Position numbers and translations under genes: made by a program. DNA of 12,839 bases, from positions 1 to 12,839 of the forward strand of contig JAGQKX010000007.1 in assembly GCA_020429905.1 (NCBI GenBank), read 5' to 3'. The notes below the pieces were generated by a model. The model worked only from the letters and a program-made list of their open reading frames with translations, made no database searches and was not told the DNA's origin. The stretch is from a candidate division WWE3 bacterium (GTDB lineage: Bacteria; Patescibacteriota; 4484-211; JAGQKX01). Each line of letters begins with the position of its first letter. Within the stretch, counting starts at the first letter, position 1. Positions 1-12,839 of the stretch are shown one piece after another.

Positions 1-1
1 C

Positions 2-46
2 GATCTGGTTGATTTCACGTTAGATTTAGAACTTAAAGCATCTTAG
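2..46 (+). CDS. C-terminal end of a probable PilN-like pilus assembly protein (partial)
   Basis: Only the last 14 codons and a TAG stop are visible; they read DLVDFTLDLELKAS. The alternating polar/hydrophobic pattern looks like a closing beta strand, as at the end of PilN-type inner-membrane pilus proteins. The identification rests mainly on position: the next gene, starting 13 bases after the stop, is PilO-like, and pilN-pilO order is conserved in type IV pilus operons. The fragment is too short to assign a family from sequence alone. Confidence 0.45.
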   Translation, partial: DLVDFTLDLELKAS

Positions 47-59
47 GTTCTTAGAATAT

Positions 60-659
60 ATGGAAATGCCATTTGCTAAAGACATTAATGAATTAAAGAA
101 AAATCAAAAGGCTCTTAGAATTATTGAACTGATAGCTAATGTTGTTATACTCCTTGTTGTTTTGGCAATTGTGATCCGGCCGACAGTTGTGGATATTTTG
201 GCACTGCGTGCAGATAAGCAGGAAGTTGAAGCTTTGGCAGGCAAGCTCTCAGAAAAAGTGACAAATCTCGCGAGCGCCGAGACGGCGGTTGATGAATTTA
301 AATCTTCAGTTCCACTCTTTACTGCTGCCTTACCGCTTGAACCTAAGCAATTTGATTTGTTGAATCAGGCACAACTTGTAGCTGAAGAACAAGGGTTGTC
401 TGTTGATCAACTCACGTATAAAGCAGGAGATAGTAGTATTGTTGAATTCACGATTGTAGGCAAAGGCAAATATGGCCAAATTGTTTTTTTTATAAATAGT
501 TTAGAAGAAATGCCCCGACTGGTTCAACTTAAAGAAGTTTCAATTGCTCAAGCTTCTGAGGATCTTGAAGAAAATCCGACATTAACATATACAATTACAG
601 GAAAAGGGTATTATTATACAGAGGAAGTTTCGTTAATTTCTGATCCTTCAGAAAATTAA
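60..659 (+). CDS. PilO-like type IV pilus inner-membrane assembly protein
   Basis: This 199-residue protein has the PilO layout: a short charged cytoplasmic N-terminus, one membrane segment (about residues 21-39), a helical probable coiled coil (about 48-80), then a small alpha/beta periplasmic-type domain to the C-terminus. The C-terminal half contains VEFTIVGKGKYGQIVFFINS and a later LTYTITGKGYYY strand, typical of PilO ferredoxin-like domains (a strand followed by a helix covering a single-residue 'L/F xx LE' stretch). PilO pairs with PilN to form the platform linking the cytoplasmic PilM ring and motor to the envelope. In a single-membrane organism the domain would face outward. The start at 60 is preferred; an in-frame ATG at 66 is possible. 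No Shine-Dalgarno precedes either, and translation probably follows the upstream gene. The family call is from architecture and context because PilO sequences diverge strongly. Confidence 0.75.
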   Translation: MEMPFAKDINELKKNQKALRIIELIANVVILLVVLAIVIRPTVVDILALRADKQEVEALAGKLSEKVTNLASAETAVDEFKSSVPLFTAALPLEPKQFDLLNQAQLVAEEQGLSVDQLTYKAGDSSIVEFTIVGKGKYGQIVFFINSLEEMPRLVQLKEVSIAQASEDLEENPTLTYTITGKGYYYTEEVSLISDPSEN

Positions 660-672
660 TGATAATGAAAAT

Positions 673-885
673 ATGTCAAAACCATCAATAATAGCGATCA
701 TCATTGCGCTTCTTTCAATTGGAAGTCGGGTAGGGGTGACCATGTTTGTAAATACTGAATCAATCTCAGCACCGACCGTAAGTGAGGAATGGTTAACCCC
801 ATTAGATCCTAACTTGTCTACAGTTAACGTAGATGAATTTGAATCTCGTTCAGAAAACCGTGTAGGTAAGGAACTAGAGCTCTAA
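673..885 (+). CDS. small membrane-anchored protein at the end of the pilus operon
   Basis: This 70-residue protein starts 13 bases after the PilO-like stop, so it is probably co-transcribed with it. Residues 4-25 are hydrophobic and could be a signal anchor; the remaining ~45 residues are acidic and outside the membrane by positive-inside reasoning. It contains no cysteine, so it is not a lipoprotein. It holds the place pilP has in many pilN-pilO-pilP operons, but it lacks a PilP-sized beta domain. It could be a pilus accessory protein or a reduced PilP counterpart; the sequence does not show which. The 3' end of the gene holds the 10-base palindrome TAGAGCTCTA, which has no loop and is not read as a terminator. 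Confidence 0.6.
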   Translation: MSKPSIIAIIIALLSIGSRVGVTMFVNTESISAPTVSEEWLTPLDPNLSTVNVDEFESRSENRVGKELEL

Positions 886-947
886 CTGTCTTCATCTCTC
901 TCATCTTGTGCAGCTTGCTTTTTCTTTTTAATAGGCTACCTCTGTAT

Positions 948-1017
948 CTCCAACTAAAAAATAACATGTAATAAGAGAATGTTTTCACAAGCCAATGCTA
1001 CGCAGTGTAGGTTGGAG
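948..1017. repeat. nested inverted repeats between convergent genes
   Basis: This lies in the 161-base gap between the pilus operon and the convergent LPDTA gene. CTCCAAC (948-954) is matched by GTTGGAG (1011-1017). Inside it are AACAT (963-967) with ATGTT (979-983) and CTAC (998-1001) with GTAG (1007-1010). The last arm directly abuts the outer 3' arm. Folded together they would form a three-way junction. The stems are only 7, 5 and 4 bp, so chance is possible. Confidence 0.3.
956..983 (-). terminator. weak candidate intrinsic terminator for the LPDTA gene
   Basis: Read on the minus strand, a 5-bp stem (AACAT/ATGTT) with an 11-base loop is followed by ATTTTTT. The position, about 65-90 bases past the minus-strand stop, suits a terminator of the two-gene surface operon. 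The short A/T-rich stem makes it weak. Confidence 0.3.
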
Positions 1018-1046
1018 TTAGGTCATGTTGGATGATTACTTCAAAT

Positions 1047-1529
1047 CTAGAGGATAATCAATAGCGCTCCGGCTGCTGTTAACACGATAGACATGGTGAT
1101 TAATAGTTTCCATCCGCCTCCAGCTGTATCAGGTAACTCATCAGATAACGGCGTTGGAGTAGCCGTAGGAGATGGTGTCACTTCCGTAGTTACAGTTGGT
1201 TCAGCAGTAGGGCTTGGCGTAGTTTCTGTCGATGGGGTCGGCGTTGCAACCGCAGTTGGTTCGGGTGTGGGAGCGGTTGTCGGCGTTACGGTAGGAACGA
1301 CAACGGTTGGAGTTGGTTCTGGTGTTGTCTCGGCGGTAGTTGGCGTTGGGACTACAGTTGTTGGGGTGGGAGTTGCTTGTACCGTTGGGGTAGGGGTTGG
1401 GGTTGGTTCCGGCCCAGTATCTCTTCTTTGACTAATGAGGATCAGACCGAAGACAAGTCCTACTAAAAGACCAAGTATCATGAGGATAATGTTGAAATGT
1501 CTAACTAATAAATTTTTTAGAGATCGCAT
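1047..1529 (-). CDS. Pro/Thr-rich stalk protein with C-terminal LPDTA sorting signal
   Basis: This 160-residue protein has four visible parts: a basic N-terminus, a hydrophobic segment (about 13-32) followed by two arginines, a low-complexity Pro/Thr/Val/Glu linker (about 40-128), and LPDTA (132-136) followed by GGGWK and a hydrophobic helix to the end. LPxT-A/G plus a hydrophobic tail is the layout recognised by sortases, which cut after Thr and transfer the protein to an envelope amine. Two things are odd. There is no clear signal-peptidase site after the first helix, so it may remain as an anchor. There are no basic residues at the extreme C-terminus, unlike classical signals. No globular domain is visible. 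The gene lies downstream of the cohesin gene on the same strand with a 94-base gap, and the sortase is next to both. It is probably a surface-exposed, possibly glycosylated stalk. The apparent Gly/Val-rich reading on the opposite strand is a by-product of the repeats. Confidence 0.75.
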   Translation of the reverse strand: MRSLKNLLVRHFNIILMILGLLVGLVFGLILISQRRDTGPEPTPTPTPTVQATPTPTTVVPTPTTAETTPEPTPTVVVPTVTPTTAPTPEPTAVATPTPSTETTPSPTAEPTVTTEVTPSPTATPTPLSDELPDTAGGGWKLLITMSIVLTAAGALLIIL

Positions 1530-1623
1530 AATGTGTCGCAGCTATAATCGCTTGGGGGCAGTGAACACAATATCACTTGCCAATACATCTATCCACGTAT
1601 AGAGTGCTATTTCTTTCATACTA

Positions 1624-2316
1624 TTACACGAGTAATATGATTGCAACGATTAAGAGCAGTATTCCAAAGCCCAAAAAGATGACTGTTGGGGCAACTATTC
1701 CTGCATCTGGAAGATCAGATGGGGTGGGGGAACCCGTGCCGCTTCCAGGAGTTGGTGAAGTGCCTGGGGTGATTGTTGTTGCTGAGGTTGGCGCAGGAGT
1801 TGTACCTTGCCCGGTAGGGGTGGGCGTAACCGCTTCTGTGGTTATGGTGACGACGCTTCCTACCGAACTCGTCAAAATATCGACATTATCACTGTCTCTA
1901 AAAATAGCACTATCGTCATTGAAGGCAATCTGAGTTGTGTTGGCGGCATTTGCCAGAAAAGTTACTCGGGCAAAAAGTAAATTGTCACCCGAGACACCCG
2001 GGCTCGGTACACTACCTGTCATCCTCACTTCATCAGAGCCAATGGAGTTTTCAAACCAAATGGAAACAAAACTTCCTGATTGATCAATGGTTTGGGGAGT
2101 GACATCAGCGCTGTTAAATGACAAATTCGCAGCGACAGTATTAACATTTGTACCGTCAGTGTTTACTCGTATTTCTACCGTAAAAATACTATCAACCGCT
2201 ACGGTTTGTGTTGATGGATCAATCGTTAACGACGCAGCTTGGGCGTGTGAATCAACAGCCATTAAGAAAAAGAAACCGATTAAAATAACTGGGATGCAAA
2301 AAAATTTCTTTAGCAT
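1624..2316 (-). CDS. secreted cohesin-domain protein with Pro/Thr linker and LPDAG sorting-like signal
   Basis: This 230-residue surface protein opens with a signal peptide: Lys-Lys, a hydrophobic core (residues 5-21) and an SHAQA site that allows cleavage near residue 25 or 27. Residues about 29-160 resemble a cohesin domain. They begin with a LTIDPSTQTVAVDSIFTVEI-type strand pair and include the VAANLSFNS strand and a LLFARVTFLA strand, typical of the jelly-roll beta fold. A Pro/Thr/Gly/Ser linker (161-200) leads to LPDAG (202-206), a hydrophobic helix and the terminus. LPDAG departs from LPxTG/A at position 4 (Ala for Thr). As in the neighbouring LPDTA protein, the tail from the motif to the end is exactly 29 residues and lacks a basic end. 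Cohesins bind dockerins in cellulosomes, but stand-alone cohesins occur in many surface proteins, so the ligand is unknown. The divergent sortase suggests covalent anchoring. Confidence 0.8.
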   Translation of the reverse strand: MLKKFFCIPVILIGFFFLMAVDSHAQAASLTIDPSTQTVAVDSIFTVEIRVNTDGTNVNTVAANLSFNSADVTPQTIDQSGSFVSIWFENSIGSDEVRMTGSVPSPGVSGDNLLFARVTFLANAANTTQIAFNDDSAIFRDSDNVDILTSSVGSVVTITTEAVTPTPTGQGTTPAPTSATTITPGTSPTPGSGTGSPTPSDLPDAGIVAPTVIFLGFGILLLIVAIILLV

Positions 2317-2379
2317 ATACTAATATTGTACTCAATTTTTAGTATTTATCTATTGTAATATACAGGATAACATAATCTT
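2317..2379. promoter_or_regulatory. divergent promoter region between cohesin and sortase genes
   Basis: This 63-base A/T-rich gap must hold the promoters of both genes. On the minus strand TACAAT (complement of 2325-2330) ends 8 bases before the cohesin ATG, so the transcript would start at or very near the start codon. On the plus strand TTTTTA (2336-2341), a 17-base spacer and TATACA (2359-2364) precede the sortase start by 15 bases; this is a weaker match. The sharing suggests co-regulation of substrate and enzyme. Confidence 0.5.
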
Positions 2380-3150
2380 ATGAGGAACATACCCATACCA
2401 AATATCGCCAAACGGACATCAGGAGTGGTTTTACTTTTGATCTCCGGAGCAATGTTTATATATCTTGGCTGGTTTTATTTCATCATGCCTCGTCTCATTG
2501 TCAATGATAAAGACACATTGGCGTCCGCATTTGATCGCGAAACATATCTTAGTTTGTCTGAGCGATACGGTGTGTATTCGCATATCAACGACGGTCAATC
2601 AGGAATAATTATCGGAGGTGTGCTCTACCCATTTGGCAATAATGGTAATGATTCATCTTCGGGCCCATCCGTACTTTCTGCTTCAGCAGATAAACCGTCT
2701 GAAGTAACGCTCTCAATTCCTGAACTCAATATTCATAACGCAGCGGTTCAGATCGATGTTGACGGTACGAATGAAGGAATTTATCAAACGGTGCTCAGAC
2801 GAGCAGTGGCCCATTTCGCTAACACTGCGTACCCGGGTCAAAAGGGCAATACATTTTTCTTTGGACATAGCAAAATTCCTATTTTGGCGGGAAGCGATTA
2901 TGAATCTATTTTCACAAATTTACCCCGCATTAAAAACGGTGCCATTGTCGAGGTAAAAACATCGAATGCAAAATACCGATACAGGGTAAATTACACTGCT
3001 GTGTTATCGCCCAAAGATGTATTCATTCTAAATCAACCGAAAGAGGAACGGCTTCTCACATTAATGACATGTATTCCGCCAGGTTTTGGATCTAATCGCT
3101 ATGTAGCGGTGGCAAATCTCGTTGGAGTTGAAGGTTTAACTAATGTTTAA
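2380..3150 (+). CDS. sortase (transpeptidase), class not assigned
   Basis: This 256-residue protein has an N-terminal membrane anchor (about 14-36), a variable stretch rich in Gly, Asn and Ser (about 65-105), and a C-terminal sortase domain (about 108-250). The catalytic set is complete and ordered: His163 in FFFGHSK, Cys231 in TLMTC, and Arg240 in SNRYVA. The protein is a single-pass type II membrane enzyme with its catalytic domain outside. Sortases cut LPxT-type signals and form an acyl-enzyme with the Cys before transfer to an amine. Two proteins with LPDTA and LPDAG tails are encoded immediately upstream in divergent orientation, which makes them likely substrates. The TLxTC motif followed by a proline-rich PPG loop resembles small class D/E-type enzymes, but the class cannot be settled by eye. 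There is no Shine-Dalgarno sequence. Confidence 0.93.
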   Translation: MRNIPIPNIAKRTSGVVLLLISGAMFIYLGWFYFIMPRLIVNDKDTLASAFDRETYLSLSERYGVYSHINDGQSGIIIGGVLYPFGNNGNDSSSGPSVLSASADKPSEVTLSIPELNIHNAAVQIDVDGTNEGIYQTVLRRAVAHFANTAYPGQKGNTFFFGHSKIPILAGSDYESIFTNLPRIKNGAIVEVKTSNAKYRYRVNYTAVLSPKDVFILNQPKEERLLTLMTCIPPGFGSNRYVAVANLVGVEGLTNV

Positions 3151-3152
3151 TG

Positions 3153-3260
3153 TTAATACATGACGAACCAGATATAGGCTGCAATGAGGGCTAAGGTGGT
3201 AATGCTGGTCGTTAGAAGCGTTTTTTTAACATCGGCTTTTAGATATTTAATCTCATCCAT
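3153..3260 (-). CDS. 35-residue single-pass membrane microprotein
   Basis: This small gene encodes 35 residues: MDEIKYLKADVKKTLL, then a hydrophobic helix (about 16-34) ending WFVMY. It has a charged amphipathic head and one membrane segment, with Lys residues just before the helix. Support comes from the sensible composition, from filling the gap between the sortase stop (3150) and the DUF4446 promoter almost completely, and from an extended -10 element placed exactly 6 bases before its ATG. It converges with the sortase gene; the two stops are 2 bases apart. Its function is not recognisable. It could act as a small membrane regulator or subunit, but nothing in the sequence shows a partner. 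Confidence 0.6.
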   Translation of the reverse strand: MDEIKYLKADVKKTLLTTSITTLALIAAYIWFVMY

Positions 3261-3266
3261 GACAGC

Positions 3267-3275
3267 ATTGTAACA
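3267..3275 (-). promoter_or_regulatory. extended -10 promoter of the 35-residue gene
   Basis: On the minus strand the sequence reads TGTTACAAT, then six bases (GCTGTC), then ATG. This is a TGn-TACAAT extended -10 element matching TATAAT at five of six positions. No good -35 is seen at the usual distance, which extended -10 promoters tolerate. The expected start of transcription is the A of the ATG, so the mRNA would be leaderless. Confidence 0.6.
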
Positions 3276-3296
3276 TATCACTATTCGTGTAACTGG

Positions 3297-3326
3297 TTGA
3301 CCATCGGTCATTTACCGTTGTATAAA
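3297..3326 (+). promoter_or_regulatory. promoter for the DUF4446-DUF3048 gene run
   Basis: TTGACC (3297-3302, five of six matches to the -35 consensus), an 18-base spacer and TATAAA (3321-3326, five of six matches to the -10 consensus) make one of the best sigma-70-type promoters in the window. Transcription would start around 3333, leaving a leader of about 7 bases before the ATG at 3340. It is back to back with the promoter of the small minus-strand gene. Confidence 0.65.
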
Positions 3327-3339
3327 ATAATTACTCGAT

Positions 3340-3852
3340 ATGGACACAATTTCTCCGTTTTTAAACAAGTTAATGATGGAAACTTCTGGGACGGTTTTGT
3401 GGATATTGTTGGTCGTTGCGGCGCTTATTTTTTGGGTATTATTGCTAACGCTCGCTTTGTGGAGACAGATGAAGATAAATAGGCGTTTAATTGGTGATGA
3501 TAGTGCCCGTTCTCTTAGAAAAATAGTACTAGAACAAATGGATAAGGTTGGTGCTATGCAAGTCGACCTCGCAAATGTTGAAGATATTATTTCTTCAGCC
3601 ACCAATGCTAATGTTTCCACAGTTCAACGGATTGGGTTAGTACGGTTCAGCCCTTTTGAAGATACGGGAAGTGATCAAAGTTTTGTGCTTGCGTTATTAG
3701 ATGGCACAAATACTGGGATTGTTTTATCATCATTACATGGGAGAGACAGAACGCGCATGTATGCCAAAAAAGTAATTAAAGGTAAATGCGAAGAATATTC
3801 TTTATCTGAAGAAGAGCAGGAGGCAATCAACCAAGCGATGTCTACCCAGTAG
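3340..3852 (+). CDS. DUF4446 family membrane protein
   Basis: This 170-residue protein has one membrane segment (about 18-41), a helical, probable coiled-coil region (about 45-90), and a C-terminal domain matching DUF4446. The domain shows the family's pattern: an IGLVRFSPFEDTGSDQSF-type motif, ALLDGTNTGIVLSSLHGRDR, a MYAKKVIKG strand, and LSEEEQEAI near the end. DUF4446 proteins are widespread in Firmicutes and candidate-phyla bacteria, and their function is not known. The start has a strong promoter just upstream and no Shine-Dalgarno sequence; an internal Met-Met at 12-13 is a less likely start. It probably shares a transcript with the DUF3048 gene 15 bases downstream. Confidence 0.88.
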   Translation: MDTISPFLNKLMMETSGTVLWILLVVAALIFWVLLLTLALWRQMKINRRLIGDDSARSLRKIVLEQMDKVGAMQVDLANVEDIISSATNANVSTVQRIGLVRFSPFEDTGSDQSFVLALLDGTNTGIVLSSLHGRDRTRMYAKKVIKGKCEEYSLSEEEQEAINQAMSTQ

Positions 3853-3867
3853 ATACGGCTTTCAATA

Positions 3868-5016
3868 ATGAAATATAAGATTCAAAATATTATTCAGAAA
3901 ATAAAAGGAAAATGGATTACACTGGGCAAAAAGAAACAAATTGTGGTGGTCATTACATTAGGTGTTTTCCTTTTAGTTTCGGTAGGTGGGATTTATGCCT
4001 TTGTGCAATCAAGGCAACCAGTCGCAATTCCAATTAATGCGAATACAGATGATAAAAATTCTGTTGATGTTGAGTCTCCAGAACCGCCAGAAAACCAAGA
4101 ACTACCACTAGATGGAGCGTTAGTTACTCAGGCTGAGTATGACCGGATTATGAGCTATTTGCCTATGGCGGTAATGATTGAAAACTCTACTACTGTGCGT
4201 CCAGTGAGTGGATTGTCGAGAGCAGATCTTGTCTATGAGGCGGTAGTAGAAGGGGGAATAACTCGGTACATGGCTGTATTTTTGCACCATGATGCCGAAG
4301 AAATTATGCCCGTGCGTTCATCCCGAAGTTATTATCTTGATTGGTTAGAAGAACTTGATGCTACCTACATGCATATTGGAGGGGCAATTAGTGATAATCC
4401 GCGTGCTGTTGCGCTGCCTCGAATATTTAGTACTGGAGTTAAAACATATATGAATGTTTCTGGTGCGTGGCTCAGAAAGCCAGGGGTACTTGCACCGCAT
4501 AACGCGTTCACATCGACGGACAGAATGAAAGATGTTCAAGATAAAAACGGATGGGCGAGATCGACAAAACTTCGTCCTTGGTTATTCAAAGATGAAGCAC
4601 CTCAGGATGAGCGACCATCAGAGCAGACAATCAGTCTAGAGTGGGGCTCTTGGGGAAGAAATGCGTATAGCGTAGTCTGGGTCTTTGATCCTGTGGGTAA
4701 CAGATATTTTTATGAAGTTGGCGGGGTTAGGCAAATGGACGCCAAGACAGGAGACGATGTTTCTCCCAAAAACGTCATCATGCAGTTAACCGGGTTCTCA
4801 TCTGCGAACGATCAATATGGTCATGTTCTGTATGACACGGTTGGAGAAGGCCGTGCTCTCATCTTTAGAGATGGTAAAATTATTGATGGAACATGGAAAA
4901 AAACTGCCCTTGATGCTCGTACCATCTACTACGATGAAAACGGTGACGAGATGGAATTTAATAGAGGTTTAAGCTGGATTCAGGCCGTCCCAACAGAAAG
5001 CGTGATTACCTACTAA
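3868..5016 (+). CDS. DUF3048 (YerB-type) membrane-anchored extracytoplasmic protein
   Basis: This 382-residue protein has a very basic N-terminus, one membrane segment (about 25-46), an acidic Pro-rich linker (about 55-85), and the two halves of DUF3048. The N-terminal half contains the family hallmarks AVMIENS, RPVSGLSRADLVYEAVVEGG, ITRYMAVF and PVRSSRSYYLDW. The C-terminal half (about 240-378) contains DAKTGDDVSPKNVIMQ, GRALIFRDGKIIDGTWKK and a terminal GLSWIQAVP. YerB of Bacillus is the named relative; its biochemical role is undefined, though an envelope location is expected. No cysteine follows the membrane segment, so it is an anchored protein and not a lipoprotein. It starts 15 bases after the DUF4446 stop and lies 3 bases before the next gene, so the three probably form an operon. 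Confidence 0.9.
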   Translation: MKYKIQNIIQKIKGKWITLGKKKQIVVVITLGVFLLVSVGGIYAFVQSRQPVAIPINANTDDKNSVDVESPEPPENQELPLDGALVTQAEYDRIMSYLPMAVMIENSTTVRPVSGLSRADLVYEAVVEGGITRYMAVFLHHDAEEIMPVRSSRSYYLDWLEELDATYMHIGGAISDNPRAVALPRIFSTGVKTYMNVSGAWLRKPGVLAPHNAFTSTDRMKDVQDKNGWARSTKLRPWLFKDEAPQDERPSEQTISLEWGSWGRNAYSVVWVFDPVGNRYFYEVGGVRQMDAKTGDDVSPKNVIMQLTGFSSANDQYGHVLYDTVGEGRALIFRDGKIIDGTWKKTALDARTIYYDENGDEMEFNRGLSWIQAVPTESVITY

Positions 5017-5019
5017 TTT

Positions 5020-5610
5020 ATGGAATTTGATGAAGCCTTACAATTTTTATTTACATCTAGGGTGCGTTTGAAAATCTTGGAGTTGTTTGTTCTTAATCCA
5101 GATACTCGTTTTTATGTCAGAGAAATCGTTCGAAAAGTTGATGAAGAGATCAATGCCGTCCGCCGTGAATTAAAACGTCTCCATAAGATTGGTTTGCTCA
5201 GAACTGAAAATCGAGCCAATCGAAAATATTACCAAGTTAAACAAGATTTTAGATATTACCCTGAACTCATCAGAATGCTTGGTAAATCAAGTGGACTCGG
5301 AGGAGATATCGTTACTCAGCAAGTAGAGCTAGGGAATATTAAATATGCAATTCTCTCTCTCGAACTTTTGCTTGGACGCGTGGCCAAGCCACATGAAGTC
5401 GATCTTATGGTTGTTGGCAACGTTAATGAAGAATTGCTTAATTCTCTTGTGAAGAAAGCCGAGGAACGATACGAACACGAGATCAACTACACCGTTATGG
5501 GAAATGAAGAATTCAAATTTCGAAGACAACGTCATGATCAGTTCATCGTACAGATCTTAACTCAGCCATTTGTTGTTTTGATAGGAAAAGAAGAGGAATT
5601 GTGGATATAA
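5020..5610 (+). CDS. winged-helix regulator fused to a degenerate minimal nucleotidyltransferase domain
   Basis: Residues about 1-78 form an ArsR-like winged helix: LFTSRVRLKILELFVLNP, a recognition-helix stretch (EIVRKVDEEINAVRRELKRL), and a wing ending in NRKYYQV. Residues about 100-196 follow the fold of minimal nucleotidyltransferases of the MNT/HEPN type: a hydrophobic helix, VDLMVVG (Asp128), a helix, INYTVMGNEEFKFR, and a final FVVLIG strand. The usual active site is not intact. The GSxxRG loop is replaced by LSLELLLGRV, and the usual D-x-D reads EVD. The domain is therefore probably not a working transferase and may serve in sensing or dimerisation. The gene starts 3 bases after the DUF3048 stop. 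It is probably a DNA-binding regulator; its targets are unknown. Confidence 0.8.
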   Translation: MEFDEALQFLFTSRVRLKILELFVLNPDTRFYVREIVRKVDEEINAVRRELKRLHKIGLLRTENRANRKYYQVKQDFRYYPELIRMLGKSSGLGGDIVTQQVELGNIKYAILSLELLLGRVAKPHEVDLMVVGNVNEELLNSLVKKAEERYEHEINYTVMGNEEFKFRRQRHDQFIVQILTQPFVVLIGKEEELWI

Positions 5611-5619
5611 TAATCCCCT

Positions 5620-5648
5620 TTGCGCTTTTTGCCTCATAGTCATAAAAT
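5620..5648 (+). promoter_or_regulatory. candidate promoter for secD-secF
   Basis: TTGCGC (5620-5625, three matches), a 17-base spacer and TAAAAT (5643-5648, five matches) lie in the 80-base gap before secD. The start of transcription would be near 5655, giving a leader of about 36 bases. That leader contains no Shine-Dalgarno sequence next to the ATG, where the sequence is A/T only. Confidence 0.4.
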
Positions 5649-5690
5649 ACAAAGCGGAAATAAGCCCCTCAGCGGTTTGTTTAATTTTAT

Positions 5691-7073
5691 ATGAAACATC
5701 ACAATCGGTTCTGGCTTTGGTTAATAACAGTTATTACATTTATCTCACTACTGATCTCAATTCCTGAGATTAACCCTCATATTAGTATCTTTGGTAAAAC
5801 GCTTGATTTCTCGTTTGGAGGATATTCAATTAATTGGAATCTGGGCTCGTCTCAATTTGTTCGCAGTCTCGATATTGTAAAAGGTCTTGATTTGGCCGGT
5901 GGTGTACGGGCTACCCTTAAAGCCGACATGTCTGGAGTAGCTGATGAAGATCGACAAGATGCCTTAGAGTCAGCACAGTTAGTTATTGAGCGCAGAGTAA
6001 ACTTTTTGGGGGTATCAGAACCAAACATTTATCCATCAAAATCCGGTGATGATTACCGGATTATTGTTGAACTTCCAGGGGTAACCGATACTAACCAAGC
6101 GATTGATCTTATCGGTCAGACAGCTCAATTACAATTTAGAGAGGTTGACGGAGAGTTTACCAGTTTGCAAGATGCGTTTGTTAATAACCAATTCAAGGAT
6201 ACTGAACTAACGGGGAAATATCTTAAACGAGCCTATTTAGAATTTTCGCAACAGGGACAATCATCGGTTGCAAATGAACCAATTATTCGTCTTACCTTCA
6301 ATGATGAAGGGGCGACACTTTTTGAGACTATTACCGAAAGAAATGTAGATAAACCATTGGCTATGTATCTGGATGAACTGCTTCTGTCGGCCCCAACAGT
6401 GAGTCAAAAGATTTCTGGTGGTCAGGCAATAATCAGCGGAGGATTTACGGTTGAAGAAGCGCAACTACTCGTCAAACAACTTAACGCTGGTGCCTTGCCT
6501 GTTCCCGTAGAGGTCGTTCAACAGGAAACCATTGGACCAACGCTCGGAGAACAGTCTGTAAATAAAAGCCTAACAGCAGGATTGGTTGGTCTAGGATTAG
6601 TCATTTTGTTTATGATTCTTAACTATGGACGATTAGGTATTCTTGCTTCAGTGGCATTAATGATTTATGGTTTGATTACATTAGCGCTTTATAAACTGAT
6701 TCCCGTCACATTAACGTTATCGGGTGTCGCTGGATTTATTCTTTCTATTGGTATGGCGGTGGATAGTAATATTCTTATTTTTGAACGCATGAAAGAAGAA
6801 ATAAGGGCTGGTAAACCACTTCACCAAGCTATGGAACTCGGTTTTGGAAGAGCTTGGGATAGTATTCGTGACGCCAATGTGGCTACGCTGATCACCGTAT
6901 TTATTTTGTTTAACCCTTTCAATTGGAATTTCTTAGTCACGAGCGGGATGGTACGAGGTTTTGCATTGACGCTCGGGTTAGGAATTGCGATTTCATTATT
7001 TAGCGGTATTATTGTTACCCGAACACTTATTCGCGTGTTTTATCGAACACAGCGTATCAAAAAAAATGATTAA
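5691..7073 (+). CDS. secD: SecD, protein translocase accessory subunit
   Basis: This 460-residue protein is a compact SecD. It has a first membrane segment (about 7-25), an extracytoplasmic P1-type domain, and five more membrane helices in the C-terminal ~180 residues. Family signatures are DLAGGVRATLKAD near residue 65, ERRVNFLGVSEP, YRIIVELPGV, and GPTLGEQSVNKSL just before the RND-like membrane domain. There the motif GMAVDSNILIFERMKEE carries Asp358, the residue corresponding to the proton-pathway Asp of SecD. With SecF it pulls exported proteins across the membrane using the proton motive force. It is shorter than the ~615-residue E. coli protein, as in many bacteria with a small P1 domain. 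secF follows with an overlap, so the two are co-translated. Confidence 0.97.
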   Translation: MKHHNRFWLWLITVITFISLLISIPEINPHISIFGKTLDFSFGGYSINWNLGSSQFVRSLDIVKGLDLAGGVRATLKADMSGVADEDRQDALESAQLVIERRVNFLGVSEPNIYPSKSGDDYRIIVELPGVTDTNQAIDLIGQTAQLQFREVDGEFTSLQDAFVNNQFKDTELTGKYLKRAYLEFSQQGQSSVANEPIIRLTFNDEGATLFETITERNVDKPLAMYLDELLLSAPTVSQKISGGQAIISGGFTVEEAQLLVKQLNAGALPVPVEVVQQETIGPTLGEQSVNKSLTAGLVGLGLVILFMILNYGRLGILASVALMIYGLITLALYKLIPVTLTLSGVAGFILSIGMAVDSNILIFERMKEEIRAGKPLHQAMELGFGRAWDSIRDANVATLITVFILFNPFNWNFLVTSGMVRGFALTLGLGIAISLFSGIIVTRTLIRVFYRTQRIKKND

Positions 7074-7956
7074 CTTCATGAAATACAAATGGATATACTT
7101 TGCAATTTCGGGTGTGGTGATCATCCCAGGGGTGATTTCTCTCGCTCTTTGGGGGTTGCGACCTTCTGTCGATTTTATCGGAGGAACAGTCTGGGAATTA
7201 CAACTTGCGCGTGACCAAGGAGATTGGAATGAAGTCCAGGGCCAGATAGACACGCTCATTGAGAACGAAGGAATTGAAATTTCAGGTAGCACGCTGAATG
7301 ACCAGGGAGTAGTACAACTTCGATCATCAACCATAACTCCTGATCAAAAGAAAACAATTCAACAAAAATATCAAGACGAGATAACCACAGACATTACCGA
7401 ATTACGATTCGAAACTGTTGGCCCATCGTTGGGCAGAGAACTCTTGATAAAGACGATCACGGGTGTCTCACTGGCGGCATTGTTAATTTTGGCCTATATC
7501 GCCTGGAGATTCAAGGAAAAAATGTACGGTGTATGTGCGGTATTAGCTATGCTACACGATAGTATTATTGTACTTGGTGTATTCAGTTTAATTGGACACT
7601 TCTGGGGTGTCGAAGTTGATTCCTTATTCGTGACGGCAGTACTAACTATTTTGTCTTTTTCTGTACACGACACGATTGTGGTATACGATCGTATCAGGGA
7701 ATCAATTCGAAAATATCCAAAGTTAACATTTATCGAGCTGATCAATAAGGCAGTAGGTGAAACACTTGTCCGGTCAATCAACAACTCGTTGACCATTATA
7801 TTTATGCTTTCTGCGTTATTACTTCTTGGCGGAGAATCGATCCGTTGGTTCGTTTTTGCCTTGCTAGTAGGTACAATAGCGGGTACCTATTCATCTACAT
7901 TTACTGCCGCCCCACTACTTGCCTTGTGGTCTGAAAAATTAAAAAAATCAAAATAG
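7066..7956 (+). CDS. secF: SecF, protein translocase accessory subunit
   Basis: This 296-residue SecF has an N-terminal membrane helix (about 7-28), a small outer domain starting with VDFIGGTVWEL, and the ETVGPSLGRELL motif before the five-helix membrane domain. The conserved SFSVHDTIVVYDRIRES motif contains Asp202, the counterpart of the functional Asp of the SecF D-T-I-V-V motif. The His preceding it replaces the more common Asn. LVRSINNSLTI completes the signature. The chosen ATG overlaps the secD stop by 8 bases and gives the natural MINFMKYKW start. An ATG at 7078, 4 bases after that stop, is the alternative. Longer readings starting at a TTG inside secD are not credible. A weak hairpin lies at the 3' end. 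Confidence 0.96.
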   Translation: MINFMKYKWIYFAISGVVIIPGVISLALWGLRPSVDFIGGTVWELQLARDQGDWNEVQGQIDTLIENEGIEISGSTLNDQGVVQLRSSTITPDQKKTIQQKYQDEITTDITELRFETVGPSLGRELLIKTITGVSLAALLILAYIAWRFKEKMYGVCAVLAMLHDSIIVLGVFSLIGHFWGVEVDSLFVTAVLTILSFSVHDTIVVYDRIRESIRKYPKLTFIELINKAVGETLVRSINNSLTIIFMLSALLLLGGESIRWFVFALLVGTIAGTYSSTFTAAPLLALWSEKLKKSK

Positions 7957-7974
7957 AGACGGTCTCTTTATTTT
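7955..7974 (+). terminator. weak hairpin with T-rich tail after secF
   Basis: AGAGA (7955-7959), loop CGG and TCTCT (7963-7967) are followed by TTATTTT. The stem begins within the secF stop codon. Five base pairs make a weak terminator; AGAGAC/GTCTCT is also a possible operator for the downstream gene, whose -10-like TATTTT (7969-7974) ends 6 bases before its ATG. Confidence 0.35.
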
Positions 7975-7980
7975 CGACGT

Positions 7981-8736
7981 ATGAATAACTTGCCAAGGAT
8001 TCTTTTTACAGGACCTTTTAACGAGGACCACATAATTATCTCTTTTTCTCCCGTCAGTAACCGCAAAATTGATCCATTGATAGAATCACGTTTAGAAAAA
8101 GAATGGGAGGACATTATGAAAAAGGCGAAAGAATCAGGTAAACTGGCCTTCGATGCTGATACCTTCCGATTAGACACATATAGAATTGACAATCATGAAC
8201 TCTACCTTGAAGTGAGTAATCTACGCTTTAGCAAACGCAAACCCTTGAAAGATATGGTTTCAGAATTGATTCCATTAGGGGAAGCATATTTTCCAAAAGG
8301 CATGAGCATCGGAGGATTTATTAAGACTACCGATGATAAATATATTTTTGGCCAGCGAAATGGTCGTTCGTTAACAAAAACGACACAAGATTTCATTGGT
8401 GGTATCGTGCAGCCGGAAAAACTAGACTCTGGGAGAGATTTATTCGGTGCAAATTATCAGGAGATTGATGAAGAATTAAATATTCCAAAATCAAAAATAA
8501 CATCGATGTGCTTGCTTGGGGTAGTTCTTTCGAATACTAGTGATGTAATCTGTGTGATGGATACGCACCTCTCATTAACTTTAGCAGAAGTAAACATGCT
8601 TTTTAGGGATAGAAAAGACGCCGAAATGGATTCTATCGTGGTGATTGAGAAAAAAGCATTGGAACAGTATATGCAAACTTTGGGCGGATACAAGCCGTGC
8701 GCATTCACGCTCTTTCAGAGCGTTTATTCACCGTGA
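7981..8736 (+). CDS. Nudix-superfamily-like protein with degenerate Nudix box
   Basis: This 251-residue cytoplasmic protein has an N-terminal region (about 1-105) of helices and strands and a C-terminal Nudix-like domain from GGFIKTTDDKYIFGQR. The Nudix box is recognisable but altered. Gly140-Gly141 opens it, and QEIDEELNI (160-168) stands for REUxEExGU, with Gln for Arg and Asn for Gly. About six extra residues separate the first Gly/Glu part from the helix. The three metal-binding acids (Glu161, Glu164, Glu165) remain, so diphosphate hydrolysis is still possible. The arrangement of a long N-terminal extension and inserted box recalls eukaryotic-type NUDT22/NUDT9-like enzymes, but the substrate cannot be read from the sequence. 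Its 3' end overlaps the convergent LytR_C gene by 13 bases. Confidence 0.65.
   Translation: MNNLPRILFTGPFNEDHIIISFSPVSNRKIDPLIESRLEKEWEDIMKKAKESGKLAFDADTFRLDTYRIDNHELYLEVSNLRFSKRKPLKDMVSELIPLGEAYFPKGMSIGGFIKTTDDKYIFGQRNGRSLTKTTQDFIGGIVQPEKLDSGRDLFGANYQEIDEELNIPKSKITSMCLLGVVLSNTSDVICVMDTHLSLTLAEVNMLFRDRKDAEMDSIVVIEKKALEQYMQTLGGYKPCAFTLFQSVYSP
8707..8723. terminator. perfect 7-bp hairpin inside a convergent gene overlap
   Basis: ACGCTCT (8707-8713), loop TTC and AGAGCGT (8717-8723) form a perfect stem just before the last codons of the Nudix-like gene and adjoining the stop of the convergent gene. On the plus strand it is followed by TTATT, so the U-tract is poor. It could slow or end transcription in either direction; function is inferred from position. 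Confidence 0.4.
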
Positions 8737-9800
8737 ACAATCACGACATTATATTGACTAAACCGATCACCTGGGCCAAATTCGGCAACTGTGGCTGTAT
8801 CATAGAGAGGTTTTAACACTGAGTATGCCGCATCAGCTACATCCTTGAAGCCAGTCTGGTAGTTTATTTGAACATGATCGTAGTTGTATGGAGGGGCATC
8901 ACCAACGTAGTCAACGATAATCTCGCGTTCTTCTAATTTGCTTTTGATTTCAGATGCAGCTCCTGGGACACCGCTTCCATTCAAAACATACAATTGATAA
9001 TCATTTGGATCTCTATCTAGCTGGACCGGGGGAAGTGGAGTGGGGGTTGGCTCCGGAGTTGGTTCAGTGGTTGGCTCAGATGTGGGGGTTGGTTCGTCAG
9101 TAGGAGCAGTTGTTGGTTCGTCGGTTGGAGCAACGGTGGGTTCTTCACTTTGAGTCGGTTCAAAAGTTGGTTGAGTTATATCAGCAGGTGTGGGGGTAAC
9201 CAGAACATCGAAGGCTTTTTGTTTGTTGATAGAATAGGCATTTTGATCTGTGTCTGATGGCCACAGGAACGTGTGAGCCACAATAATCCCTCCAAACAAG
9301 ATAAGCCAAATTAATATACTTGTTAACCATTCCTTTCCACTGTGTTTGATGTATGTTGCAAATTTTAGCCGTCTGTCATGATCGAACAATACAAAATTAA
9401 CACCTTGATCTTTACCGCTCCAAACGTAAAAAACCAAACCGATACTAAAAATAAGGAGAATCGATGCCATAATGCTGTTTCCATATCCCAAATCAAACCG
9501 CTTAAGTAATTGGAACAAAGTGCCGATTACGAGTAAGAAAAAGATCAAACCCCAATCAGATTTGCTCATTCGTTTATTGCTTATGGGGTGATTATGAAAC
9601 AGTAGCATGATTGTGAAACTAACAAGAATAACGGCCAAGATGGAAAGTTCATGGATATATGGAGTAATGCCTCCACCAAGCACTTGATTTACAAATAAAG
9701 TGAAAAAATACGTTGAAATTGATAGGGCAAATACTTTTTTGGCAATTTTTCCGACATTATCCAAAAAACTATCCCTCGGAGATTCTTTGTCCACGTGCAT
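8724..9800 (-). CDS. five-TM membrane protein with Pro/Thr linker and C-terminal LytR_C domain
   Basis: This 358-residue protein has five predicted membrane helices (about 23-45, 51-68, 82-99, 109-127 and 158-180). They are followed by a Pro/Thr/Glu linker (about 200-258) and a C-terminal LytR_C domain (268-358) that begins LYVLNGSGVPGAASEIKSKL and ends NVVIVHG. An odd number of helices with a cytoplasmic N-terminus places the linker and LytR_C outside. LytR_C is usually found after the LCP domain of cell-wall polymer ligases; no LCP domain is present here, so a ligase role is not supported. It is probably an envelope-associated module, perhaps binding a wall component. The linker includes a 24-base tandem duplication. 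The promoter is a clear extended -10 element. The gene overlaps the Nudix-like gene tail to tail. Confidence 0.8.
   Translation of the reverse strand: MHVDKESPRDSFLDNVGKIAKKVFALSISTYFFTLFVNQVLGGGITPYIHELSILAVILVSFTIMLLFHNHPISNKRMSKSDWGLIFFLLVIGTLFQLLKRFDLGYGNSIMASILLIFSIGLVFYVWSGKDQGVNFVLFDHDRRLKFATYIKHSGKEWLTSILIWLILFGGIIVAHTFLWPSDTDQNAYSINKQKAFDVLVTPTPADITQPTFEPTQSEEPTVAPTDEPTTAPTDEPTPTSEPTTEPTPEPTPTPLPPVQLDRDPNDYQLYVLNGSGVPGAASEIKSKLEEREIIVDYVGDAPPYNYDHVQINYQTGFKDVADAAYSVLKPLYDTATVAEFGPGDRFSQYNVVIVHGE
9091..9138 (-). repeat. 24-base tandem duplication in the Pro/Thr linker
   Basis: Two near-identical 24-base units (9091-9114 and 9115-9138) each encode a PTDEPT-containing octapeptide in the linker of the LytR_C protein. 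Being a multiple of three, changes in copy number would keep the frame and alter linker length. Confidence 0.7.
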
Positions 9801-9806
9801 ATGATT

Positions 9807-9815
9807 ATTGTATCA
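9807..9815 (-). promoter_or_regulatory. extended -10 promoter of the LytR_C gene
   Basis: On the minus strand TGATACAAT is followed by AATCAT and then the ATG at 9800. The TGn-TACAAT element ends 6 bases before the ATG, predicting that transcription starts on the start codon itself. It is the same arrangement as before the 35-residue gene at 3260. Confidence 0.65.
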
Positions 9816-9878
9816 ATTACGCCTTTAAAATGAAGAGTTATTATTGTCACCAGTTTATATCTCCTGTAAGCTATAAAA

Positions 9879-10373
9879 ATGGAACCCGGTTTGCTTGTCC
9901 CTTCCAGTGAAGAGATTCTTGTCACTGTCATTCGTACGGTGATCATCTTTCTGTATACATTTCTCTTACTCAGATTATTGGGTAAAAAACAGGTTTCTCA
10001 ATTCACTTGGTTTGATATTTTGCTGATTGTAGCTTTGGGGTCCGCTGTAGGCGACACAATGATTTACCCTGAACGCACGGTGCCGGTTTTTGTTTCTATG
10101 ACGGCGATTATGGTTGTTGTAGCGTTGGTTAAAGTTTTTTCATACCTGATGATTCACAGTGAAAAAACAGAAGATATTCTAGAAGGAAAAGAGCTGCTTT
10201 TGGTTAATAATGGGAATATTGTGGCTGACGGTTTAAGCAAATCTGATCTAACTGAGCGGCAATTGCGAACGCTACTTCGTGAAAAAGGACATATAAACCT
10301 CCGGTGGGTAGATAAAGTTTTTCTTGAAACAGACGGTGAAATTAGCGTCATAAAAAAGTCAAAAAAGAAGTAA
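9879..10373 (+). CDS. DUF421 / YetF-like membrane protein
   Basis: This 164-residue protein has three membrane helices (about 13-33, 43-61 and 67-91) and a cytoplasmic C-terminal domain (about 95-160) with a Lys-rich end. The family signatures are RLLGKKQVSQFTWFDILL and ALGSAVGDTMIY between the helices. ILEGKELLLVNNGNI and LTERQLRTLLREKGH lie in the soluble domain. DUF421 proteins (YetF, YrbG and others) are found across bacteria; their molecular function is unproven. The start follows TATAAA by one base, so that TATAAA is too close to serve as a -10 for this ATG. TTGTCA at 9844-9849 is a good -35-like match, but its 17-base partner TAAGCT is poor. The gene diverges from the LytR_C gene across 78 bases. 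Confidence 0.85.
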   Translation: MEPGLLVPSSEEILVTVIRTVIIFLYTFLLLRLLGKKQVSQFTWFDILLIVALGSAVGDTMIYPERTVPVFVSMTAIMVVVALVKVFSYLMIHSEKTEDILEGKELLLVNNGNIVADGLSKSDLTERQLRTLLREKGHINLRWVDKVFLETDGEISVIKKSKKK

Positions 10374-10390
10374 TTTGAGCATGTATCTAT

Positions 10391-10420
10391 TTGCATCGGA
10401 ATATTCGCACGGTGTATACT
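10391..10420 (+). promoter_or_regulatory. promoter for galU
   Basis: TTGCAT (10391-10396), an 18-base spacer and TATACT (10415-10420, five of six matches) precede the ATG at 10430 by 9 bases. Transcription would begin at about 10427, giving a leader of 0-3 bases. The TTG at 10391 is thus better read as the -35 element than as a start codon of a longer protein. Confidence 0.6.
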
Positions 10421-10429
10421 TATCTGACT

Positions 10430-11311
10430 ATGAAAGGTAAAAGACCAGTTACAAAGGCGGTCATTGCGGCCGCAGGATATGGAACTCGCTTTCTTCCCGC
10501 AACCAAAAATCAACCAAAAGAAATGCTCCCCATTATAGACAAGCCGATTATTCATTATCTCGTTGAGGAATGTGTGAAATCGGGAATTACAGATATCATT
10601 CTAGTTACTAGAGCTGGGCAGCATATCATGGAAGATTATTTTGATAATAATTACGAGCTTGAGTATTCCTTGGAACAGAATGGCAAAGAAAATAGATTAA
10701 AGATCATTAAAGATATCCCACAGATGGCTAACTTTGTCTATGTGAGGCAAAAGGGACATCTCCCGTATGGCAATGGTTCACCCTTAGTTGCGGCGGCGCC
10801 ATTAATTGATGACGATGAAGCCTTTGCCTATTTATTCGGTGATGATATGGTGCTATCCAAAACTCCCTGTATTCAACAGCTGAAAGAAGTTTATGAAAAT
10901 AATGATTGTGACGGAGTAATTGCTGCCCAAACGATCCCGCGAGAAGAGACGTATCGTTATGGAATTGTAAAATTTAAAGAAGGGACCAATCAATTTGAGG
11001 CGCTTGTTGAAAAACCCGATCCTGAGGATGCGCCATCGACGGTGGCAGAGTTCGGACGATTCATCCTGAATAATAAGACGGTCAGTGAAATATTAAAGAA
11101 AAATACAGGTTTAGACGGAGAGCTTTGGCTGGTTGACGCAATTACTCGAGCGTCTGAAAACGGCGGTACTTTTCTCGTTCACGACATCGAAGGGAAATGG
11201 ATGACCACAGGTGATCCGTTGCGATATATGAAAACGATGGTTGAATTTGCCTTAGAACGTGAAGATCTCGGACAAGAGTTTAAAGATTATCTGAAGAATT
11301 TAGAGATGTAA
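10430..11311 (+). CDS. galU: UTP--glucose-1-phosphate uridylyltransferase (GalU-type)
   Basis: This 293-residue enzyme would make UDP-glucose from UTP and glucose-1-phosphate for glycan and lipid glycosylation. The nucleotide-binding signature is clear: AVIAAAGYGTRFLPATKNQP with KEMLPIIDKPI (about residues 10-43). The metal-binding pair is Asp138-Asp139 in LFGDDMVL. The sugar-binding EKPDPEDAPS starts at Glu194, followed by FGRFILN and GELWLVDAI, and Lys appears in IEGKWMTTGDP. One deviation is that the usual GLGHAV stretch reads YGNGSPLV (Gly114-Gly116), so specificity for glucose versus a related sugar is a little uncertain. The ATG at 10430 is chosen because the signature begins right after it and a promoter lies directly upstream; a longer reading would put the promoter inside the protein. 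The 3' end overlaps the convergent gene by 12 bases. Confidence 0.92.
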   Translation: MKGKRPVTKAVIAAAGYGTRFLPATKNQPKEMLPIIDKPIIHYLVEECVKSGITDIILVTRAGQHIMEDYFDNNYELEYSLEQNGKENRLKIIKDIPQMANFVYVRQKGHLPYGNGSPLVAAAPLIDDDEAFAYLFGDDMVLSKTPCIQQLKEVYENNDCDGVIAAQTIPREETYRYGIVKFKEGTNQFEALVEKPDPEDAPSTVAEFGRFILNNKTVSEILKKNTGLDGELWLVDAITRASENGGTFLVHDIEGKWMTTGDPLRYMKTMVEFALEREDLGQEFKDYLKNLEM

Positions 11312-11674
11312 CACCTGCGTAAATGTGGTGGTTTCCTCGTTTACTTCTTCTATTCCATACGGAAATTGTTCAACTGAATAGTATCGGATTGGTAGTTTGA
11401 GGCTGTTGGCTAAGTTTATTTCTTTTTGTACTCCATCGGAGATATCACCAAATACCCATAGTTCATCTGCACAACGAATAAGGTCATTGTTTGCTTCGAT
11501 GAGTCTTTCGCGTTTTACGGTATCAAGCAGAAAATAGGAAAACATCATAAACGCACAGGTTGGGGTGTAATTCTGTTCTAAAATAAATTTAATAATATGT
11601 TCGCGAAGGTAAAAGTTTTGTTTACTCATCGCGGCGAAAACAATGGGTTTTTGCGTTTCGTGTAATGAGGACAT
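11300..11674 (-). CDS. small nucleoside 2-deoxyribosyltransferase-like / DUF4406-like protein
   Basis: This 124-residue soluble protein looks like one Rossmann-type domain of the nucleoside 2-deoxyribosyltransferase superfamily. It opens with a strand (KPIVFAAMSKQ) and a helix carrying YLREHIIKFILEQ. Next is RERLIEANNDLIRCADELWV with Asn62 and Asp70, then FGDISDGVQKEI (Ser79, Asp80, Gly81, Glu85), and a final LPIRYYS strand. The 'N...LI..AD.LWVFG..S.G...EI..A' pattern is typical of such nucleotide- or nucleoside-binding folds. Related proteins with this pattern are usually annotated as hypothetical, and the reaction is not known. The gene diverges from pcm and its 3' end overlaps galU by 12 bases. 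A GGAG lies 16 bases before the ATG, too far to be a normal ribosome binding site. Confidence 0.6.
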   Translation of the reverse strand: MSSLHETQKPIVFAAMSKQNFYLREHIIKFILEQNYTPTCAFMMFSYFLLDTVKRERLIEANNDLIRCADELWVFGDISDGVQKEINLANSLKLPIRYYSVEQFPYGIEEVNEETTTFTQVLHL

Positions 11675-11747
11675 GTGTAATTTAGTGACACTCCTATAGT
11701 TACAATACCATAGTTTTATTTTGGATTGCTTGATAAGCTTACTAATT

Positions 11748-11756
11748 TGGTATGAT
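11748..11756 (+). promoter_or_regulatory. extended -10 promoter of pcm
   Basis: TGGTATGAT is followed by ATTCGT and then the ATG at 11763. The TGn-TATGAT element ends exactly 6 bases before the ATG. TTGATA at 11730-11735 is a -35-like match but at only 15 bases; TTGCTT at 11726-11731 is at 19. The predicted transcription start is the start codon. Confidence 0.65.
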
Positions 11757-11762
11757 ATTCGT

Positions 11763-12407
11763 ATGGATTATATGCAGGAACGCCAGCATTTGGTTCAAAC
11801 ACTTCGAGAAGAGGGAATTACAAACGAAAGAATATTGAATGCCTTCGCTACGGTGCCGCGCCACGAATTTGTCCCAGAAGATCAGAAAGCGCTTTCGTAT
11901 CAGAATAGTCCACTTCCTATTGGTTATGAACAGACCATTTCTCAGCCCTATACGATTGCATTCATGATGGACTTACTTGATCCACAGCCTGGTGATACTG
12001 TTTTTGAAATCGGTACTGGTTCTGGATACCAGGCAGCATTATTATCAAAACTAGTCAAACATGTGTATACTATCGAACGAATACCTGAATTATCTAAGCA
12101 GGCTCGGACAGATATTGAGCGTTTATTTTTAGAAAACGTTACCGTCATGGAGGGTGATGGTACGTGTGGATATCAGGATCAGGCACCGTTTGACGGTATT
12201 ATCGTTACAGCAGGTGCGCCACAGGTGCCGACGCAATTAACTAATCAACTGACTAATGGTAGGCGCTTGGTGATCCCGGAGGGGTCTTGTTGGAATCATG
12301 AACTGTTAAAAATAACAAGAGAAGGCGCACAACTTAATCAAGAAAGTTATCCAGGGTTCATGTTTGTTCCGCTTATTGGAGAATGCGGATGGGAAGCAGA
12401 AAAATAA
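11763..12407 (+). CDS. pcm: protein-L-isoaspartate (D-aspartate) O-methyltransferase
   Basis: This 214-residue cytoplasmic enzyme would use S-adenosylmethionine to methylate isoaspartyl residues in aged proteins, starting their repair. Family features appear in order: VPRHEFVPED near residue 30, LPIGYEQTISQPYTIAFM (substrate-binding region), SAM-binding motif I FEIGTGSGYQAALLS (Gly84, Gly86, Gly88), an acidic end of the second strand in YTIERIPEL, GDGTCGYQDQAPFDGIIVTA, and a C-terminal LIG strand. Length is normal for the family. The ATG at 11763 is preferred: it matches the family start and sits 6 bases after an extended -10 element. A longer reading from a TTG at 11721 would run through the promoter. 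The next gene begins 7 bases after its stop. Confidence 0.95.
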   Translation: MDYMQERQHLVQTLREEGITNERILNAFATVPRHEFVPEDQKALSYQNSPLPIGYEQTISQPYTIAFMMDLLDPQPGDTVFEIGTGSGYQAALLSKLVKHVYTIERIPELSKQARTDIERLFLENVTVMEGDGTCGYQDQAPFDGIIVTAGAPQVPTQLTNQLTNGRRLVIPEGSCWNHELLKITREGAQLNQESYPGFMFVPLIGECGWEAEK

Positions 12408-12414
12408 TATATTT

Positions 12415-12839
12415 ATGGGATTAAGAACAATTAATAAATCTGAAGTTTTGTCACCTGAAGTCATCGCTGAGCAAGAAAAAAATATGCGTCGAGGCGTTCC
12501 GGAGGGTATTCCAATGATGAATCCCGTAAAAGCTATTGAAAACGAAGACGTTACTAATAGTGTAAAGGCCGAGATTGATCGATTATTAAAAGATTTAGAA
12601 CCCTCTACTCGAGAAATATTGAGGAATGCCCTGTCTATGCTCCAAAAAGGGGTGGAGCTAGATATGGTTAAATCAGTTCTGGAATCGGCACTAGCGCAGG
12701 TAGAAGCTCAAGAGCAGGAATGGGAAAAGGCATCCATGGCAATTCATTCAGTTTTAGGCATCATTGATAATTCTGAAAATGCTTCAAAAAGAGATGAACA
12801 GCAGGAAGCAGCCACAAATGGGCAAATGACCCCAGAATA
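12415..12839 (+). CDS. unidentified soluble helical protein (partial, runs off the window)
   Basis: An open frame begins with ATG at 12415, 7 bases after the pcm stop, and is still open after 141 codons at the window edge. It starts MGLRTINKSEVLSPEVIAEQ. The visible part is soluble, rich in Glu, Gln, Lys and Ala, and mostly predicted helix. A region around residues 58-105 (LLKDLEPSTREILRNALSML onward) looks like paired helices, possibly coiled coil. No membrane segment, signal peptide or known motif is seen, and I cannot name a family. Spacing suggests co-transcription with pcm. The A/T-only sequence before the ATG has no Shine-Dalgarno site. Confidence 0.65.
   Translation, partial: MGLRTINKSEVLSPEVIAEQEKNMRRGVPEGIPMMNPVKAIENEDVTNSVKAEIDRLLKDLEPSTREILRNALSMLQKGVELDMVKSVLESALAQVEAQEQEWEKASMAIHSVLGIIDNSENASKRDEQQEAATNGQMTPE

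Follow-up and report, generated by a model that had tools for sequence, protein, structure and literature searches.

Which proteins does a sortase serve when its gene stands beside two candidate substrates in the genome of a candidate-phyla bacterium? The question is raised by contig JAGQKX010000007.1 (positions 1 to 12,839 of the forward strand; the window, 12,839 nucleotides in full length), which belongs to an 812-kb, 77% complete assembly (GCA_020429905.1) of a candidate division WWE3 bacterium. This division is also named Katanobacteria. Within the window, a sortase gene is divergent from two minus-strand genes whose products end with the motifs LPDAG and LPDTA. A sequence-only reading had taken the three genes for a self-contained and dedicated display system. 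The answer that we favor, with a probability of about two in three (0.66), is a general sorting system, in which the sortase serves several proteins scattered in the genome, and one conserved neighbor client is a single-cohesin surface receptor.

The sortase gene (2380..3150, plus strand) encodes a protein of 256 amino acids that matches PF04203 with an E-value of 4e-23 (81.9 bits, curated cut-off 26.6) and passes the cut-off of TIGR01076 (47.3 bits vs. 39.35). The AlphaFold2 (AF2) model has a sortase fold, with a single N-terminal membrane helix (residues 8-39), a catalytic domain covering approximately residues 105-252, and no C-terminal helix. The complete catalytic set recognized in the sequence-only reading is borne out: His163 (2866..2868), Cys231 in the TLMTCIPPGF motif (3070..3072), and Arg240 (3097..3099), all on the plus strand, do not vary among 38 aligned sequences, the window's own and 37 homologues. 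From family, fold and catalytic set, this protein is predicted to be, probably, a membrane-held transpeptidase.

On the other side of a 63-bp divergent intergenic region (2317..2379), the minus strand carries the gene of a 230-aa single-cohesin surface protein with an LPDAG sorting tail (1624..2316). It starts with a probable signal peptide having an SHA site (2242..2316), as read by eye and not with a signal-peptide program. The cohesin domain follows (approximately residues 26-160; 1837..2241); VIA-align recognizes a cohesin fold in the AF2 model, and the PF00963 profile has no match in the protein. The same profile matches 6 of the 11 aligned members of the family at E up to 0.1, and P0003-P0007 carry a precomputed PF00963 annotation. 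One of these database orthologues, P0004, is labeled candidate division WWE3. The LPDAG motif (1699..1713), in its extended form LPDAGIVAPT, precedes a C-terminal membrane helix (1630..1689; AF2 helix 210-229) with no Lys or Arg after it. L, P, and G of the motif are invariant in the 11 aligned members. Tails in P0001-P0008, where P0001 is the window's own protein, read LPDAG (six), LPDTG (one) and LPYVG (one), with Asp at position 3 in seven out of eight; the weakest matches are P0009, which ends with LPEAG, and P0010, which has no such tail.

Is the pair conserved? The comparison covered eight genomes of the order, distributed in three families: f1 (the window's genome alone), f2 (G001, G003, G005, and G006) and f3 (G002, G004, and G007). 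The G004 contig and locus L003 are identical in length and genes and were counted once. Four genomes have this sortase clade, the window's and those of f3, where the orthologous sortases are 43-49% identical to that of the window. The divergent pair made of the sortase gene and a cohesin gene with an LPxxG tail recurs in the three f3 genomes, hence in 4/4 when the window is included. The f3 cohesin tails are LPVSG (G004), LPVGG (G002), and LPNSG (G007), and Asp at position 3 is not kept. For three further cohesin/sortase orthologue pairs from the database, the longest contig is equal within each pair (2517, 34256, and 42559 bases), which suggests that these genes are linked too. In f2, an LPxTG protein is encoded next to, or one gene from, three of the four sortases (G001, G005, and G006); sortase-client linkage thus recurs with a different pair. 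Where their motif is complete, the f2 sortases (L039, L040, and L041) are of the CWPLGL type, and two of the linked proteins are approximately 1200 aa long, with tails unlike those of f1 and f3.

As predicted from these sequences, the cohesin protein is likely a wall-anchored client of the adjacent sortase. For this client we infer secretion, cleavage, wall attachment, and partner binding. The protein would be exported by Sec and then held by its C-terminal helix; Cys231 would cut after residue 4 of LPDAG, and the cut protein would be joined to a peptidoglycan precursor. The cohesin would be displayed on a proline/threonine-rich stalk, where it could bind a dockerin-like or another partner. 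Peptidoglycan is a plausible acceptor; three transpeptidase-domain matches are present in the window's genome.

The two tails of the window are as first read, on the minus strand and at the same coordinates, each motif starting 29 residues before the C-terminus and being followed by a hydrophobic stretch. When compared with an LPXTG-type signal, both have the pentapeptide near the C-terminus and the hydrophobic helix, and the canonical Thr-Gly of positions 4-5 is present in neither. A strict tail rule retained 5 of 164 open reading frames (ORFs) in 13 loci, two being those of the window. Since shuffled tails give an expectation of 0.08, the tails exceed chance. Their equal spacing is unremarkable, because 29 residues are found in 6 of the 14 candidate tails of the four clade genomes, the other eight being at 31-35.

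When the eight genomes were searched with a tail profile, the window's genome yielded three tails (E up to 10). Two are in the window; the unlinked one belongs to a 679-aa open frame on contig C132, with PD40 beta-propeller repeats and an end made of LPDSG, a helix, and KEARLKR. Among the relatives, G004 has six tails, G002 three, and G007 two, and 8 of these 11 are on contigs other than that of the sortase discussed. It is because candidate clients are scattered in this way that we favor a general system with the sortase beside one conserved client. Profile matches without LPxx[GA] near the ORF end were left out of the counts (for example G002:C89, G001:C19:36046, and G005:C18; also G007:C6, G034:C1:574429, and, in family f80, L129-L132, 4 of 9 rows), as was G049:C6, where LPFTG is located 49 residues before the end of an apparent multi-helix membrane protein. 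In a search of 58 genomes, the 13 strongest matches (E no higher than 2e-8) all fall in the four genomes with this sortase, a result biased by profile rows taken from these genomes and their orthologues. Weaker matches include a true LPTTG tail in G007 and an LPEAG tail in G034. The latter has a Thr at position 10 (Thr10), yet both sortase matches of G034 to that of the window are distant (5e-20 and 7e-18) and the G034 sortase placed in the tree belongs to another clade, which counts against a strict tail-sortase link. This real-looking tail is not one of the 14, since G034 is outside the four clade genomes. A control profile made from tails of f2, G022, and G029 gave strong matches in three of the four f2 genomes and nothing strong in f1 or f3; like tail profiles A3 and A5, it mostly recovers its own training rows.

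Among the 14 tails, 12 are of the G-type, and all 12 have Thr10 (LPxxGxxxxT). They have D, V, K, E, S, N, or T at position 3 and S, T, A, or G at position 4, so that the LPD[TA][AG] logo proposed in the sequence-only reading is too narrow. Thr10 is absent from both LPDTA tails (window and G004:C21) and from five LPxTG tails near other sortase types (three in f2, G022, and G029). When positions 6-10 were shuffled within tails, an all-Thr column arose in 6/200,000 trials with the 12 tails and in 803/200,000 with six family representatives. In f80, which has a CIPPGI sortase, Pro9-Thr10 occurs in five tails from four of five genomes, these tails being picked by profile. These sequences hint that Thr10 may be part of an extended signal, a lead subject to biased selection. 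A bolder proposal, possible but doubtful, is that the clade sortase would read LPx[STAG]GxxxxT, a signal that tolerates variation at the cleavage residue, is locked by a Thr located five positions after the Gly, and needs no charged tail. The enzyme would expose single cohesins, like sockets, at the surface of minimal cells, possibly living as epibionts. A second class would then consist of the LPDTA tails, borne by spacer proteins in which an N-terminal membrane helix is retained; this class could tie the membrane to the wall.

The LPDTA protein differs from its neighbor in its distribution. This 160-aa ORF (1047..1529, minus strand; motif at 1122..1136) is a lineage-restricted candidate substrate made of an N-terminal hydrophobic helix, a proline/threonine-rich spacer, the LPDTA tail, and a C-terminal helix. 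Codon usage does not separate it from its antisense ORF (scores of 0.028 and 0.027); its coding status therefore depends on this architecture alone. Of the three-gene neighborhood expected in relatives, the sortase/cohesin pair was found at 3/3 f3 loci, and an LPDTA-type gene beside the cohesin gene is missing at the same 3/3 loci, where a different membrane protein of 146-182 aa takes its place. BLASTP found nothing between the LPDTA protein and the f3 gene at this place (E 57), or between the LPDTA and LPDAG proteins (E 3.2). A search with the LPDTA tail (residues 119-160) scored none of its nine candidates and left even the window's own protein unlisted, which makes it weak evidence of absence. 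A G034 protein (L107:1492-1965) has the same layout, with an N-terminal helix, a proline/threonine-rich spacer, and an LPEAGTSWPT tail; its BLASTP match to the LPDTA protein (E 1e-4) mainly concerns the spacer and was not counted as homology. The LPDTA protein, a candidate with a restricted distribution and a tail of another group, may use this sortase, a second sortase, or neither.

Three other explanations of the locus have to be weighed. That the three genes form a self-contained, dedicated display island, as initially proposed, is suggested by their tight linkage, by the conservation of one substrate linkage and by the linked pairs at three of four sortase loci of the sister family f2. With the unlinked LPDSG protein in the same genome, the unlinked tails in relatives and the absence of the LPDTA gene from all three equivalent loci, we consider such an island very unlikely. 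What stands of that proposal is that a bacterium of the candidate phyla has a sortase next to a likely substrate; "dedicated" and "self-contained" do not stand. Alternatively, the tails could be plain C-terminal membrane anchors that are never cleaved, the LP motif being due to ancestry or to linker composition. Indeed, no Lys or Arg follows the helix in the LPDAG, window LPDTA, LPTTG, and both LPKSG tails, the window tails ending with AIILLV and ALLIIL; in addition, proline/threonine-rich linkers favor LPxx matches, and shuffles of the pre-helix region match in approximately 3% of cases per window protein. This explanation is unlikely, because L, P, and G are kept in 11/11 aligned cohesin-family members while position 3 varies, and because proteins that differ in their domains carry the motif with comparable spacing.

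It could also be imagined that a type IV secretion or pilus assembly is the main target of the sortase, the cohesin gene being a bystander. In f3, the gene of a Cys-rich pilin-like membrane protein (L003:8766-9977, L035:1015-2085, and L036:7542-8729) lies between the cohesin and sortase genes, on the sortase side, the sortase gene being directly 3′ of it. Two of the three proteins were scanned, and T4SS_pilin scores above its cut-off of 26.6 bits in one (36.1) and just below it in the other (24.9); CarboxypepD_reg gives 29.4 and 20.8 bits for a cut-off of 32.3. However, the window has no pilin-like gene between its sortase and cohesin genes, scanning these loci for tails did not single this gene out, and the gene common to all four loci is the cohesin gene. 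We regard this role as highly improbable.

The computed support for a general sorting system with a conserved cohesin client consists of the sortase fold, the catalytic set, the cohesin fold, the divergent linkage within the order, the form of the tails, and the wall-synthesis genes. Several observations weigh against it. Clients are assigned to the sortase from linkage and from their joint presence in four genomes, which also served to train the tail profiles. Classical sorting signals end with positive charges, which the LPDAG and LPDTA tails lack. In f80, which is the next family whose sortase has CIPPG, a tail was found beside the sortase at none of five loci (approximately 1.5 kb on each side). 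No PF00404 dockerin was found in the window's genome (77% complete) or in G002 (95%). The single Mur_ligase_M match of the window's genome is weak alone, the family also having matches in two archaeal controls. Finally, a second sortase in the window's genome could do the work instead. This second sortase (C157; region L037:6101-9471) has a long branch in the tree and, as judged by eye, stands between a polysaccharide deacetylase-like and a glycosyltransferase-like ORF.

To which class does the window's sortase belong? It reached none of the NCBIfam cut-offs for classes C, D, E, F, and GN (140-166 bits); the best profile is class D, at 53.7 bits for a cut-off of 165, with SrtD, C, and E close behind. 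The closest solved structure by sequence is Clostridium perfringens SrtD (4d70), and by structure sortases E and A are tied in the lead. In a tree of 49 rows, to which loci L014 and L029 contributed none, the window's sortase clusters with those of f3 and with CIPPGF sequences of the database at a support of 100/99; the f80 and f20 sortases come next, with weaker support (93/91), and those of f2 are placed elsewhere. Two database homologues, P0013 and P0031, are likewise labeled candidate division WWE3. Among 379 genomes drawn from the phylum, nine match the window's sortase at E up to 1e-27, four of the clade and five of f80. By sequence, the enzyme thus appears to belong to a clade seen in this WWE3 order.

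The sortase/cohesin couple is conserved and represents a known kind of sortase-client pair; here the signal is a variant one and the cargo is a cohesin. ScaE of Ruminococcus flavefaciens is also a single-cohesin protein, directed to the wall by a C-terminal sortase signal (PMC2930009). The ScaE motif is a canonical LPXTG, its dockerin partners are known, and it comes with a sca gene cluster, whereas here the motif is LPDAG and the genome has no dockerin family match. Class E sortases are described as reading LAXTG and class D sortases LPXTA (PMC5148588), in contrast to the mostly LPx[STAG]G tails in the genomes of this clade. The window's sortase may belong to fam000526, a family that section 9 of PMC6744442 reports from over half of the CPR genomes and as near ubiquitous in Microgenomates; that section mentions neither substrates nor sorting signals. 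A sortase is mentioned in PMC7143001 and in PMC4736985, and sortase clients in these bacteria are not described in passages of PMC12857230 and PMC8672522. More generally, among the literature matches listed, whose scope was titles and abstracts excluding subscription journals and preprints, none describes sorting signals or sortase clients of candidate-phyla bacteria.

Dockerins do occur in WWE3 relatives. Runs of dockerin-bearing open frames, most of 621-719 aa, are found in G003 (C27, 5.5-17.3 kb) and G005 (C33, C36, and C1; among L075-L099). Nearby frames of 945 aa (G003) and 969 aa (G005) have two cohesins each, that of G003 also having a dockerin. These runs are a cellulosome-like array. 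In G007 (C32, 44.6-46.6 kb; L050), a dockerin ORF (32.9 bits) lies immediately upstream of the gene for a 602-aa membrane protein whose N-terminal part resembles a cohesin. In G004 (C39, 8.4-9.2 kb; L073 and L114), a cohesin protein with an LPSTG tail is downstream of an ORF ending with dockerin-like repeats, a by-eye reading that is sub-threshold in Pfam (14.7 bits).

Elsewhere in the window, a PilO gene and, after it, a 70-aa ORF with a single helix occupy positions 60-885; they converge with the LPDTA gene and might represent the last part of a type IV pilus operon. Another envelope protein, encoded at 8724-9800 on the minus strand, is a membrane protein with a proline/threonine-rich linker and a LytR_C domain. 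Within the window, no tRNA or Rfam match was found, and scans for promoters (8 vs. 6.8 in shuffles) and terminators (3 vs. 2.2) gave no clear excess.

The locus provides a defined pair of enzyme and client, together with a list of further client candidates and an extended signal that can be tested. Cohesins are small docking proteins of a type used in other bacteria to assemble enzyme complexes. If the proposed reading is true, a wall-anchored cohesin would allow these reduced cells to present docking sites for enzymes or partners.
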